From NCBI GenBank assembly GCA_937863605.1, contig CALMGN010000021.1, forward strand, positions 1 through 34,925: DNA of 34,925 nt. The letters are read 5' to 3'. The notes under the pieces are model-generated. The model was given only the letters and a program-made list of their open reading frames with translations. It was not told the DNA's origin and made no database searches. The DNA comes from an uncultured Anaerolineaceae bacterium. Its GTDB lineage: Bacteria; Chloroflexota; Anaerolineae; Anaerolineales; Anaerolineaceae. Made by a program: the position numbers and the translations under genes. Each line of letters starts with the position of its first letter. Position 1 is the first letter of the stretch. Shown piece after piece: positions 28,680-33,317 of the stretch.

Positions 28680-29399
28680 TTATAGGCCAAAATCGACGAA
28701 GAAGCCGAATTGGCTGAGGGTATTAAACACCCCGAAAAATAACAGGACGCCAACGATCACTAAAACGACGCCCATGCCTATTTCAATGTAATGCATGACT
28801 TTGCTATATTTCTTGAGAATGGTTGTTACCCAACCAATCCCGACTGCTGCGACCAGGAAAGGGATAGCCAGACCGGCCGAGTAAAATGCCAGCAGCATCA
28901 CGCCTCTTGACACCGACCCGCCGTTGATTGCCAGGGTCAGGATCATGCCAAGGATGGGGCCGATGCACGGCGACCACCCGGCTGAAAATGTGATTCCCAG
29001 CAGCGCGGACGAAAAATACCCGCGTCGGCGGTCTATTTGAGTCTGCGGACGCAGGTCGTATTCCAGGAATGGGATGCGCAGGAGGCCTGTCATGTGCAGT
29101 CCCAGGATCACCACAATCACCCCGCCAATTTTAGCCAGCCAGAAACGCACCTCATACAGCACGCCGCCCAGGGCTGACATCGTCAATCCCAGGGTCATGA
29201 AAATCAGACTGAAGCCGGCCACAAAAGCCAGCCCATGGAGAAAAGATTCTAATTTGGAGGGGGTGCTATCAACCTGATTGGCAGCAATCGACCGGCCGCT
29301 CAGGTAGCCCACATACGCTGGCACAAGCGAGAACACGCACGGAGAAAGAAAGGATGCCAGCCCGGCCAGGAATGCCAGCCCGATCGTGATGTCTACCAT
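28680..29399 (-). CDS. ccdA: Cytochrome c biogenesis protein CcdA (DsbD membrane-domain family)
   Basis: This 239-aa membrane protein has six helices and carries reducing equivalents from cytoplasmic thioredoxin across the membrane. The two redox cysteines lie in LSPCVFSLVPAYV (C21) and GWSPCIGPIL (C145), the positions typical of the family, each next to prolines in helix breaks. TlpA follows within 3 nt as the expected acceptor. A GGAG about 6 nt upstream of the ATG supports the start. The gene starts 22 nt after the L,D-transpeptidase stop, so it is likely driven by the same promoter. Confidence 0.95.
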   Translation of the reverse strand: MVDITIGLAFLAGLASFLSPCVFSLVPAYVGYLSGRSIAANQVDSTPSKLESFLHGLAFVAGFSLIFMTLGLTMSALGGVLYEVRFWLAKIGGVIVVILGLHMTGLLRIPFLEYDLRPQTQIDRRRGYFSSALLGITFSAGWSPCIGPILGMILTLAINGGSVSRGVMLLAFYSAGLAIPFLVAAVGIGWVTTILKKYSKVMHYIEIGMGVVLVIVGVLLFFGVFNTLSQFGFFVDFGL

Positions 29400-29420: not shown

Positions 29421-30533
29421 TTATGCTTCCTGAACATCTATTCGGGTTCCCCCCGGCATTGCAATGGTCATATCTCCCGGGTCGTATGGGATTACCGGCA
29501 ATGTCCAGCGGAACACATATTTGGCATCATCCGGCGCGCAATTGATACAGCCGTGCGACCGCGGCGTGCCAAAGTCATTATGCCAAAAAGTCGAATGCAC
29601 AGCCACGCCTTCCCCGGTGAACAGGGTCGTCCAGGCAACGCCTGGCAGGTCATAGCCGGTACCGGTTTGACCGCCGGTCATATGGGTAGAAACCATTTTC
29701 CGCCAAATCCGGTGGTTCGCCCCGATGGGAGTGCCCCATTCTTCCACGATCGCCCCTTCAGCGTTCCACTTGGCGCCTGAAGAAATCTGGCAGGCATAGA
29801 CTTCCGAATTGCCTTCGTATAACGACAAAATCTGCCGGGTGGGGGTTACATCCACCACTACCTTCTTATTTTCGACCTCTGGCGAGATGGGCGCGATTTC
29901 TTCGGCTGTCAACGGGCGGAAAGCTTCAGCCGCTGCCCAAAACAGGTCGCCCGGACCATATCGTTCATTGACGCGGTACAGCACTTGCCCCTGCGAGCTG
30001 GTACGAATGTCATCCACCCAGATCACTTGACTGTAGTACAGCCGCGGGATCAGGCCGTAATCCAGCGCATATTGCAGCCAGGCCGAGGACGCAGTATCGC
30101 GTTCAAGGAATATTTGCGTCTGCGGGACGCTGACCTCTACCCACATTCCCTTGCCAAGACTGGTTTGCGGCATTTCAGTAACAGGTACATTGGGCTGGTT
30201 ACCTACCGGTTGAACACTTGGCGCGTAAACGTAGCCTTCCGGGGTCTCGACCCAACGGCGGCTCTGGCGGCCCATCGGCGCTTCGCCTACCACCTCTCGC
30301 AGCCAGATGATGATGGCATCCTCGTACAATTTGCCGACCGATTCGGCATTGACAGACGGTCGAGCGCGAACATCGACAACTCCGACGCAAATCCGGCCTA
30401 GCCGTTCAGCGTCGGGAAATTCTTCCAGCAACTGGCTCCAATTTTTCCAGGGACGCAGCGCCAGCGCCCCCATGCTCAAAGCCCCTAATTTTAAGAAATT
30501 ACGTCGAGAATACGAGGTATCAATCCACTTCAT
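29421..30533 (-). CDS. Tat-exported L,D-transpeptidase with bacterial SH3 domain
   Basis: This 370-aa protein starts with the Tat signal SRRNFLKLGALSMGALAL (residues 9-26), a perfect S-R-R-x-F-L-K match, so it is exported folded. Next comes an SH3-like domain (about 48-112: VVDVRARPSVNAESVG ... GYVYAPSVQPV), a middle domain, and a C-terminal YkuD domain with VVDVTPTRQILSLYEG, a catalytic-loop His in AVHSTFWHNDFG and SHGCINC (H327, G328, C329). The enzyme forms 3-3 peptidoglycan cross-links or attaches proteins. The ATG at 30533 is chosen; a TTG further upstream at 30569 is part of the -35 box. It is the first gene of a likely operon continuing into ccdA. Confidence 0.95.
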   Translation of the reverse strand: MKWIDTSYSRRNFLKLGALSMGALALRPWKNWSQLLEEFPDAERLGRICVGVVDVRARPSVNAESVGKLYEDAIIIWLREVVGEAPMGRQSRRWVETPEGYVYAPSVQPVGNQPNVPVTEMPQTSLGKGMWVEVSVPQTQIFLERDTASSAWLQYALDYGLIPRLYYSQVIWVDDIRTSSQGQVLYRVNERYGPGDLFWAAAEAFRPLTAEEIAPISPEVENKKVVVDVTPTRQILSLYEGNSEVYACQISSGAKWNAEGAIVEEWGTPIGANHRIWRKMVSTHMTGGQTGTGYDLPGVAWTTLFTGEGVAVHSTFWHNDFGTPRSHGCINCAPDDAKYVFRWTLPVIPYDPGDMTIAMPGGTRIDVQEA

Positions 30534-30540
30534 GCCGGTT

Positions 30541-30569
30541 AGGATAATATCAATAAAGGGTTTTGTCAA
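30541..30569 (-). promoter_or_regulatory. Promoter of the L,D-transpeptidase gene, predicted leaderless
   Basis: On the minus strand TTGACA (30564-30569, perfect) and TATCCT (30541-30546) are separated by exactly 17 nt. The ATG at 30533 follows the -10 box after 7 nt (30534-30540), with no Shine-Dalgarno. The mRNA should start at or next to the ATG. It probably drives the operon L,D-transpeptidase to DUF167. Confidence 0.7.
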
Positions 30570-30590: not shown

Positions 30591-32117
30591 TTAAGAAAAT
30601 GCATCAGCTTTGATCAGAGCTGCTACAGTCTCGATTTCCGGGCCCCATAGGGCATCGCCGGCCTGGTAGGGAACTGCTGCTCGCAGGATGTCATACGCTC
30701 TGCGAGTCCCAACCCCTAGCTGCGCCTCGGGTTGCTGCCTCAAACGCAGATCCAACGCCCGGGCCGCGGTATACAGTTCAATCGCCAGCACATGGCGCGT
30801 ATTGTCTAAAATCTGGCGGGCATGCCGGGCTGCTGTCATTGCGTTGGCGTTGTGATCTTCCTGCTCGCCGGAAGTTGGCAGGGAGTGAACGCTGTCCGGG
30901 TGAGCCAGGGTCTGGTTTTCGAGCACCAGGGAGGCGGCAGTGTATTGCGGCATCATCAGGCCCGAGTTCAAGCCAGCGGCTTGGGGATGATCCACCAGCA
31001 TAGGCGGTAAGCCGCTATTCAAATTCCCGTCCGTCATCCGGAAAACCCGCCGTTCAGAAATAGCTGCCAGTTCTGAGAGCGCAATCCCCAGGTAGTCCAT
31101 CACCAACCCGACTGGCTCGCCGTGGAAATTGCCGCCGGACAGGATGTCCTCTGTTGAGAACAGCAGCGGGTTATCCGTGGCAGCGTTGATCTCGCGCTCA
31201 ACGATCTGAGCGCAAAAATCAATCGTGTCCCTCACTGCGCCTTGAACTTGCGGTGCGCAGCGCAGCGAGTAAGCGTCCTGTACCCGGCCAGCCCCATCCA
31301 TCAGCGTGGATCCACGGGTATGCTGGCAAACTGCTTTGGCTACACGCAGCTGACCGGTCTGTTCACGGACGGTATGCAGGCGCAAATCAAAGGCTGCGCT
31401 GGTCCCCATCAAGGCTTCAAGGCTCATGCTGAGCGCCAGTTCAGCGACATGCGCCAGATTGCGGGCATCATGGACGGTCAATGCGCCTATGGCGGCCGAA
31501 AAAGTCGCGCCGTTGTTGAGCGCCAGACCCTCTTTAGGCCCGAGCACCAGTCGCGGCAACCGGGCTGCTGACATAGCATCCTTGCCGCGCATGATTTTCC
31601 CCTGGTAAGCAGCCCACCCTGAATCCTCCGTCCGATCCAACGCATCGGTCGTCATTACCAGCACCAGATGGGAAAGCGGTCCAAGGTCGCCGGACGAACC
31701 TAATGACCCTTGCGATGGCACTACTGGTGTGACGCCGGCCGTGAGCATATCCAACAGCGTCTGAACGATCTCTTTGCGAACGCCAGAGTAGCCTTTTGCC
31801 AGGGTATTGGCGCGCACCAGCATGGCGCTGCGCACGATTTCTTCATCCAGGGCGGGTCCAGTGCCTACCGCATGACTGAGAATTAAATTGCGGCTAAGCT
31901 GATTGCTGTCCTTCAATGAGATGCGCCGGTCAGCGAAGATGCCAAAGCCGGTGTTGATACCATAAACCGGCCGGTCGGTAGCCAGTACGCTTTCGAGCCA
32001 TCCGCGGGCGCGCTCGATATTCTTTTGCCCATCCGCTGAGATTTCAACCGCCCCGTTATTCCGGGCGACTGCGACGACATCTTCAATGCCAAGGTGGTGA
32101 CCATCGATCGAGATCAT
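30591..32117 (-). CDS. hutH: Histidine/aromatic amino-acid ammonia-lyase family (HutH-like), SSG variant
   Basis: This 508-aa protein of the MIO-dependent lyase family removes ammonia from histidine (or Phe/Tyr in relatives), giving urocanate or cinnamates. The landmarks are VYGINTGFG (Y52), ILSHAVG (H82), the MIO loop GSLGSSGDLGPLSH (residues 141-143 are Ser-Ser-Gly rather than the usual Ala-Ser-Gly), LALNNGAT, VQDAYSLRCAPQ, NFHGEPVG and SGEQEDHNAN. The EDH in the last motif and His82 point to histidine as the most likely substrate. ATG 32117 with GAGGA at 5 nt is chosen; TTG at 32120 is in frame but lacks spacing. No hutU or hutI is nearby, so membership of a histidine-degradation pathway is not shown. 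Confidence 0.88.
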   Translation of the reverse strand: MISIDGHHLGIEDVVAVARNNGAVEISADGQKNIERARGWLESVLATDRPVYGINTGFGIFADRRISLKDSNQLSRNLILSHAVGTGPALDEEIVRSAMLVRANTLAKGYSGVRKEIVQTLLDMLTAGVTPVVPSQGSLGSSGDLGPLSHLVLVMTTDALDRTEDSGWAAYQGKIMRGKDAMSAARLPRLVLGPKEGLALNNGATFSAAIGALTVHDARNLAHVAELALSMSLEALMGTSAAFDLRLHTVREQTGQLRVAKAVCQHTRGSTLMDGAGRVQDAYSLRCAPQVQGAVRDTIDFCAQIVEREINAATDNPLLFSTEDILSGGNFHGEPVGLVMDYLGIALSELAAISERRVFRMTDGNLNSGLPPMLVDHPQAAGLNSGLMMPQYTAASLVLENQTLAHPDSVHSLPTSGEQEDHNANAMTAARHARQILDNTRHVLAIELYTAARALDLRLRQQPEAQLGVGTRRAYDILRAAVPYQAGDALWGPEIETVAALIKADAFS

Positions 32118-32128
32118 CAATTTCCTCT

Positions 32129-32836
32129 CTAAAACAGAAGCAGACCCAGCGCAACCGCGGAAGCAGGGACGGTCAGGTTGTCCAGATCGCTCAGCGGTAA
32201 AGACTCAACCGCCGCGGAAACAACGGAGATCAGCAGCAGCCGGGGGACGAGTACTCCCCAACTCAAGTTAAAAACGCCAAATTGGATAAATACTGCCAGC
32301 ACCAGCAGGGAAAAGACGAAGCTCCCGACCAACACCGCCAGCGAGCCCGCCCAGGTTTTGCGCGGCGACCATGGCAGCGGTCGCGAGGATACGCGTTTGC
32401 CAATCACATCGCCAAAGCCGTCGCCGCCGCACAATACCATCAGCGCAATAATTCCAACCGGGCTGTCCAGCCAGAAAATCAAGGTTAATAAAACGAAGAC
32501 GATGCCGTAATACAGCGGACCGCGTAAAATCTCGCGCCTGTCGCCGGTACGAGCCATGGCATCCACCGCAGCTTTATCTTTGATGATCCCGGCGCCTACC
32601 AAAAAGAATTGGATGGTAATTCCCAGCGGAACGATCGCTGCCAGGAAGCGGGCCGATGGCGCCGGGGTAAACAGCAGCCAGCATAAGACAAATATTGGAC
32701 CGGTGCCGATGTGAATAATTTTTCGACTCAGTGGGGAACTGATTATCCCGCGATGAGCCAGGAAATCGTTCAATCGCAGCCAAACCAACGCGGCAGCCAG
32801 TGTGATCACCAGGGCGAGCAGGTTGCTTCCAAGCAT
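32129..32836 (-). CDS. Phytol/dolichol kinase-like (VTE5/SEC59-type) membrane protein
   Basis: This 235-aa membrane protein has seven or so helices. The signature of CTP-dependent polyprenol kinases is present: SRKIIHIGTGPIFVL near residue 38, then GDGFGDVIGKR, PLPWSPRKTWAGSLA around 150-175, and a final VESLPLSDLDNLTVP. These enzymes phosphorylate phytol, dolichol or other isoprenoid alcohols. Which alcohol is used cannot be seen; nothing in the window indicates photosynthesis. The ATG at 32836 is chosen, with AGGAA upstream, because the longer open frame (to 32920) would overlap smpB. It lies 28 nt after smpB and 11 nt before hutH, so is co-transcribed. Confidence 0.85.
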   Translation of the reverse strand: MLGSNLLALVITLAAALVWLRLNDFLAHRGIISSPLSRKIIHIGTGPIFVLCWLLFTPAPSARFLAAIVPLGITIQFFLVGAGIIKDKAAVDAMARTGDRREILRGPLYYGIVFVLLTLIFWLDSPVGIIALMVLCGGDGFGDVIGKRVSSRPLPWSPRKTWAGSLAVLVGSFVFSLLVLAVFIQFGVFNLSWGVLVPRLLLISVVSAAVESLPLSDLDNLTVPASAVALGLLLF

Positions 32837-32864
32837 AAAAGGATTCCTATCGGGAAATGAGGGG

Positions 32865-33317
32865 TCAGGAACGATCTTTTTGTTCACGTTCCAGTTCCCG
32901 CGCTTGATCGCGGCGGGCAATATCCTGGCGTTTGTCGTACAGCTTCTTGCCTTTGGCTATCGAAATCTCTACTTTTGCGCGGCCTTCTTTCAGGTAAACC
33001 TGGACCGGGACGATGGTCATACCTTTCTGGCGGACTGCGTCCCAAAGCTGGTGGATTTCACGCTTGTGCAGTAGGAGCCGGCGCGGGCGTTTGGGATCAT
33101 GGTTGAAGCGGTTGGCTTGTTCGTAAGGCGCGATATGCGCGTTCATCAGCCAGGCTTCAGTGCCGTCGGTTTGAACGAAAGCCTCAGCCAGGCTGATTTG
33201 CCCTGCGCGCACCGATTTGATCTCACTGCCAAATAACGAAATTCCTGCTTCAAATTGCTCCAGCAGGAAGAATTCAAAACGCGCTTTGCGATTGGTGGCA
33301 ACTACTTTCACGCCCAT
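32865..33317 (-). CDS. smpB: SsrA-binding protein SmpB
   Basis: This 150-aa protein binds tmRNA and delivers it to stalled ribosomes for rescue by trans-translation. The OB-fold core begins VVATNRKARFEFFLLEQFEAG and continues with FGSEIKSVRAGQISLAEAF; later motifs are NAHIAPYEQ, HDPKRPRRLLLHKREIHQL and VQVYLKEGRAKVEISIAKGKK. The basic C-terminal tail (LYDKRQDIARRDQARELERE) that enters the decoding centre is intact. The length is normal. The ATG at 33317 has no Shine-Dalgarno but follows an extended -10 box by 7 nt. No ssrA gene is seen in the window. Confidence 0.97.
   Translation of the reverse strand: MGVKVVATNRKARFEFFLLEQFEAGISLFGSEIKSVRAGQISLAEAFVQTDGTEAWLMNAHIAPYEQANRFNHDPKRPRRLLLHKREIHQLWDAVRQKGMTIVPVQVYLKEGRAKVEISIAKGKKLYDKRQDIARRDQARELEREQKDRS

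Follow-up and report, generated by a model that had tools for sequence, protein, structure and literature searches.

We found that the hutH gene of an uncultured Anaerolineaceae bacterium encodes what is, judged from its sequence, a histidine ammonia-lyase (HutH) in which the MIO-forming triad reads Ser-Ser-Gly (SSG) instead of Ala-Ser-Gly (ASG). The reading that we favour, at a probability of roughly 0.87 for all of its parts together, is that of a working HutH whose SSG triad would cyclise as ASG does, which would serve a dispersed hut pathway and whose Ser142 would be vertically inherited and near-neutral. The gene occupies positions 30591..32120 on the minus strand of the window (the whole stretch of 34,925 nucleotides that was analyzed) and encodes 509 amino acids if read from a TTG and 508 if read from the ATG at 32117. 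This ATG (32115..32117, minus strand) is the likely true start, as a good AGAGAGGA lies shortly upstream of it. Translation through the MIO loop gives PSQGSLGSSGDLGPLSH (G-S-L-G-S-S-G-D-L), with the triad at 31689..31697 (minus strand; codons TCG TCC GGC) within the stretch G-S-S-G-D-L at 31683..31700. In plus-strand positions, the codons fall at Gly 31700-31698, Ser 31697-31695 (TCG), Ser 31694-31692 (TCC), Gly 31691-31689 (GGC), Asp 31688-31686 and Leu 31685-31683. This codon read agrees with a preliminary description of the sequence, which had reported SSG in place of ASG at 31683-31700 and had numbered the triad 141-143; these numbers hold with the ATG, codon 2, as the start and become 142-144 from the TTG. 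No gap precedes the triad in the PDB alignment, so that the TTG-based numbers equal those of the Pseudomonas putida HutH triad. The two nearest relatives, L004 (90% protein identity) and L005 (89%), both carry SSG, and the dN/dS of hutH was 0.054 and 0.057 against these two and 0.054-0.060 overall, so that a sequencing artefact or strain error was ruled out as the source of the triad.

The family assignment is carried by the profile models. The window protein passed the HutH equivalog model TIGR01225 (cut-off 539.15) by a small margin of 8 bits, scoring 547.1, and NF006871 with 576.4 bits against 524, and its match to PF00221 scored 579 bits. Its best match in the PDB was P. putida HutH (1gkm, E 3e-100), equalled among solved relatives by 7tqr (E 6.5e-100), a probable histidine ammonia-lyase of Thermoplasma acidophilum; the triad of 7tqr is given as X in the PDB record, so that its precursor is not comparable with the SSG of the window. 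Mapping of P. putida positions through the ungapped PDB alignment and the motifs showed that all nine active-site positions examined (Tyr53, His83, Asp145, Asn195, Gln277, Tyr280, Arg283, Phe329 and Glu414) are present, as are the MIO-forming Ser143 and Gly144 followed by Asp145 (SSGD at 142-145), whereas Ala142, which is usual but not required for HutH, is absent and replaced by Ser. The same nine positions are kept in 106/106 rows of the window's Anaerolineales lineage and in 22/22 SSG rows of a second phylum. The protein thus shares with P. putida HutH (TIGR01225/NF006871; 1gkm, 1b8f) a whole-length match, the examined active-site residues and an ungapped MIO-loop alignment, but differs from it in having Ser for Ala as the first MIO residue and in being encoded outside a hut operon. 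These residues bear out the earlier statement that the surrounding motifs are intact and support the view that the enzyme is probably active. The parts of PMC11432326 available to us ascribe histidine recognition to a Ser-His motif.

The surroundings of hutH are also conserved, in the order smpB, membrane protein, hutH, L,D-transpeptidase and DsbD-type protein. All of these genes lie on the minus strand, and among the loci of the best 80 of 118 relatives smpB (32865..33317, TIGR00086) was found in 64/80, the predicted membrane protein upstream (32129..32920) in 47/80, the YkuD-type L,D-transpeptidase downstream (29421..30569, PF03734) in 52/80 and the DsbD/CcdA-type membrane protein (28680..29399, PF02683) in 42/80. 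The 32129..32920 product had no NCBIfam or Pfam match; presumably it resembles a dolichol-kinase/CdsA-type protein. A record labelled Chlorobiaceae (L064, PNNN01000062.1) carries an SSG HutH with 60% identity, set among smpB, L,D-transpeptidase, DsbD-type and pgeF genes in the order typical of Anaerolineales; the genome has its own second lyase gene, and this is either a misbinned contig or a large transfer.

Within the best 80 of the 118 relatives, a contig scan gave SSG in 77/80 and ASG in 3/80, and the 30 best among the loci of 61 related genomes comprised 21 SSG (the window's own included) and 9 ASG. PF00221 was detected in 170 of 301 genomes in an even sample of Chloroflexota. A degenerate DNA pattern with Ser, Thr, Cys or Arg as the first triad residue had matches in 24/301 of these genomes, which were compared by eye with the PF00221 places; a reversed-pattern control matched 4 genomes. 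The triad of the window was itself among the matches of the degenerate pattern. Six matches were SSG within PF00221 places (five in the window's own family and one in genome G070), 11 were CSG within such places and six lay outside them; the remaining match was CSG at a contig end, on a contig with a lyase fragment as well. From these counts, SSG is a lineage marker within Chloroflexota and not a rule of the phylum. According to the available parts of PMC11432326, the majority of aromatic ammonia-lyases, though not every one, have ASG; those of PMC3903478 describe it as strictly conserved, which the present sample contradicts.

Phylogenetic analysis placed the SSG proteins of the window's lineage together. 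In a FastTree tree of 319 rows (304 distinct), built with the triad columns removed, 106 SSG rows (92 distinct) grouped with support 100 in a single Anaerolineales clade, its sister group being seven ASG rows, so that SSG does mark a clade, as the preliminary description had proposed checking. An IQ-TREE quick search on 89 rows likewise kept 18/18 sampled rows of the lineage together (SH-aLRT 99); two fragments, L246 and the triad-less L355 from a contig end, stand outside the alignment and trees. On this tree there were eight changes at the first triad residue, seven of them for the SSG label, at least six being forced by the starred branches, and these seven label changes, on a quick 89-row tree, speak against SSG having arisen only once across phyla. 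The first Ser codon was TCN, one base from the GCN of Ala, in 77/77 SSG relatives among the best 80 of 118. Ser142 does not vary within the lineage (106/106), and this could reflect constraint instead of neutrality. The SSG HutH of G070 (L134, G070:C628) falls outside the Anaerolineales SSG clade, amid ASG relatives, and is probably of separate origin.

The other phyla sampled were those of the genomes behind our own loci, G362 (a Deltaproteobacteria record) and G361 (a Chlorobiaceae record, probably Bacteroidota). The former had PF00221 in 18/118 genomes, with ASG in 19/19 alignable rows. The latter, the second phylum referred to above, had PF00221 in 111/148 genomes, and the 83 places read there held 22 SSG, 53 ASG, 7 ACG and 1 shortened loop; these places were the 30 best-scoring and 53 picked from the rest, which makes 22/83 a biased frequency. 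ASG rows were nested within SSG rows in this phylum, and the pairs L250/L267 and L276/L303 differ by Ser versus Ala at 142 at 69.8% identity. The first Ser codon was AGY in 3/22 of its SSG rows, which points to a further history there. Four of its SSG proteins (L247, L257, L276 and L252) exceeded the TIGR01225 cut-off with 653.5-703.5 bits, a margin of 114-164, and together with the SSG protein L134 and the CSG protein L184 they pass this model without Ala142. The preliminary description had named SSG being common among verified HutH enzymes as grounds for its refutation; at the level of family assignment, SSG is indeed common in HutH. Repeated change of the first MIO residue among HutH-type proteins suggests an exchange that is close to neutral rather than a switch of substrate. 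A second-copy protein in this phylum (L339) passes the flexirubin TAL model. Among 12 plasmid-borne rows, nine had ASG, one TSG and two no triad; the TSG protein, L291, is annotated as a D-beta-Phe-forming phenylalanine aminomutase.

In the accepted route to MIO, the carbonyl carbon comes from residue 142, the methylidene from residue 143 and the ring nitrogen from residue 144, and the side chain of residue 142 sits on a saturated carbon outside the ring. In the window protein, the amide nitrogen of Gly144 would attack the carbonyl of residue 142 and Ser143 would be dehydrated to the methylidene, giving a normal MIO electrophile with, as its sole difference, CH2OH where the saturated alpha-carbon of residue 142 would otherwise carry CH3. 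Because this side chain is outside the ring, Ser142 should leave the electrophile largely unchanged. Of the hydroxymethyl-bearing MIO envisaged earlier, the CH2OH follows from the accepted chemistry, but it would be borne by the saturated alpha-carbon and not by the electrophilic methylidene. The accompanying hint of an altered substrate choice finds no favour in the retention of all nine active-site positions (106/106 and 22/22) or in the interchange of Ser and Ala between close relatives. Ser142 would have been fixed once in the ancestor of the lineage, most simply through one GCN-to-TCN base change, and inherited vertically thereafter. As the substrate residues are kept and the tree shows Ser and Ala exchanging, the simplest explanation is near-neutral drift, and Ser142 is probably near-neutral for catalysis.

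Of the alternatives, adaptive tuning of the electrophile fares best but is unlikely. It supposes that the enzyme is mainly a histidase in which the Ser142 hydroxyl forms hydrogen bonds near MIO or the substrate, with effects on rate, pH optimum or the range of substrates, and it would account for the invariance of Ser142 in the lineage and for the separate origins elsewhere; however, Ser and Ala are swapped at ~70% identity in the second phylum, the change is a single base step, and in established chemistry the sole contribution of residue 142 to the ring substituent is a saturated carbon. We regard it as quite improbable that the hydroxyl is put to use in the lineage as a hydrogen-bond donor to MIO or the substrate amine, or through further dehydration extending the MIO chromophore. 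If it were, a chemically distinct MIO histidase would be found throughout the Anaerolineales lineage.

As a working HutH, the window protein would convert L-histidine to urocanate, feeding a dispersed folate-dependent hut pathway (HutH, HutU, HutI and FtcD). PF00221 is represented by one gene in the genome (2.86 Mb in 299 contigs, 92.4% complete), which also has hutI (445 bits, far above the cut-off) and ftcD (384 bits); hutH, hutI and ftcD are all on different contigs. Urocanase (hutU) was not found in this 92.4%-complete assembly. Both hutU and ftcD were present in 8/8 of the SSG relatives searched (the genomes of L004, L005, L007, L009, L012, L032, L034 and L039). A 17-kb hutU region of the close relative G353 gave 11 short scattered matches (32-341 bases) to the contigs of this genome and no hutU. 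A 299-contig assembly from which this block is missing would explain the result no less well than a specific deletion; urocanase has either fallen into an assembly gap or been lost recently. Across 61 genomes, 42 had both PF00221 and urocanase, 8 the lyase only, 3 urocanase only and 8 neither, a co-occurrence with a Fisher p of 0.0005 in which ASG lyases are counted too and kinship is uncorrected. No hutU, hutI or ftcD was seen near hutH in any of the 77 SSG loci among the best 80 of 118 relatives, with flanks of up to 6 kb per side, so that the absence of hut neighbours is the normal state of the lineage. The earlier doubt about histidine considered the neighbourhood alone and is largely removed by hutI and ftcD in the genome and hutU in the SSG relatives; with hut genes scattered in the lineage and located elsewhere in the genomes, the neighbourhood argument against histidine was rejected.

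The lack of local hut genes and of a urocanase in the assembly could still be taken to favour another substrate, such as Phe, Tyr, the substrate of an aminomutase, or ergothioneine or another betaine, but this is very unlikely. The HutH model outscored every PAL, TAL and mutase model and only its cut-off was passed; the protein failed those of TIGR01226 (271.8/519 bits), TIGR03832 (355.2/501), the TAL FlxA model NF053541 (316.4/700) and the D-beta-Phe-forming phenylalanine aminomutase model TIGR04475 (376.5/800), the latter two representing the same fold family. His83 and Glu414 are kept in 106/106 lineage rows, compared with Gln at 414 in 16 sampled ASG rows. Asn195 and Tyr280, altered in MIO-less rows, are both kept in the window protein, in which the Ser-Gly of the triad is intact. 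Ergothionase is known as an MIO-less enzyme; it (PDB 6s7j) belongs to the family by sequence (E 2e-64 against the window protein), which in contrast has a complete MIO loop. A decayed or inactive enzyme, for which only the unusual triad speaks, is scarcely credible given the dN/dS of 0.054-0.060, the absence of internal stops (0 among the best 80 of 118 relatives) and the retained catalytic residues.

Other departures from ASG were also observed. An ACG triad, in which the MIO-forming Ser is replaced by Cys, occurs in nine HutH-like proteins, two from Chloroflexota (L152 and L166) and seven from the phylum of G361 (L338, L344, L345, L347, L348, L349 and L350), with all nine active-site positions kept, including His83 and Glu414; L344 exceeds the cut-off of NF006871 and not that of TIGR01225. 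The S143C variant of P. putida HutH is reported still to mature. CSG characterizes a Chloroflexota family (L184, L185, L353, L354 and L356, as well as pattern matches in family f41), the rows of which form one clade with support 100 in the FastTree tree, and L184 exceeds the HutH equivalog cut-off. A Klebsiella plasmid encodes a lyase-family protein without the MIO triad (L210:968-2449, GSVGYLIATAHI), with Asn195, Tyr280 and Phe329 replaced, adjoining genes annotated as choline/carnitine (Opu-type) transport; it is possibly an MIO-less trimethylammonium lyase, and similar plasmid matches were found (H25, H26, H28 and H30-H32). Another triad-less homologue (GSVGQAD) lies on pSymA of Sinorhizobium meliloti (L292:995-2563), with ergothionase 6s7j as its best solved relative (E 1.7e-88). 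L352 (G556:C3), with a shortened loop (GSLGSGDL) and the same three residues (Asn195, Tyr280 and Phe329) replaced, is likely another MIO-less form.

Variation at the first triad position is not foreign to the family, the PROSITE signature of which allows Ser, Ala or Cys there. Brack and colleagues are said to have named ACG, TSG, SSG and CSG clusters. Our literature search, which did not reach Brack et al. 2024, brought up no study of Ser-Ser-Gly MIO loops; the title of that ChemBioChem article, e202400016, on variant MIO-forming residues, appears in the reference list of PMC11432326 as available to us, and the accessible parts of PMC9002059 and PMC5651878 contain nothing on the triad. The window gene probably encodes an ordinary HutH that varies in a known way and gives little sign of a new activity. 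Together, our analyses indicate that an SSG loop alone is a poor sign of new ammonia-lyase specificity, as the full histidine-binding site is kept across the changes, and the natural series of ASG, SSG, CSG, TSG, ACG and triad-less proteins offers a handle on the contribution of each MIO position.
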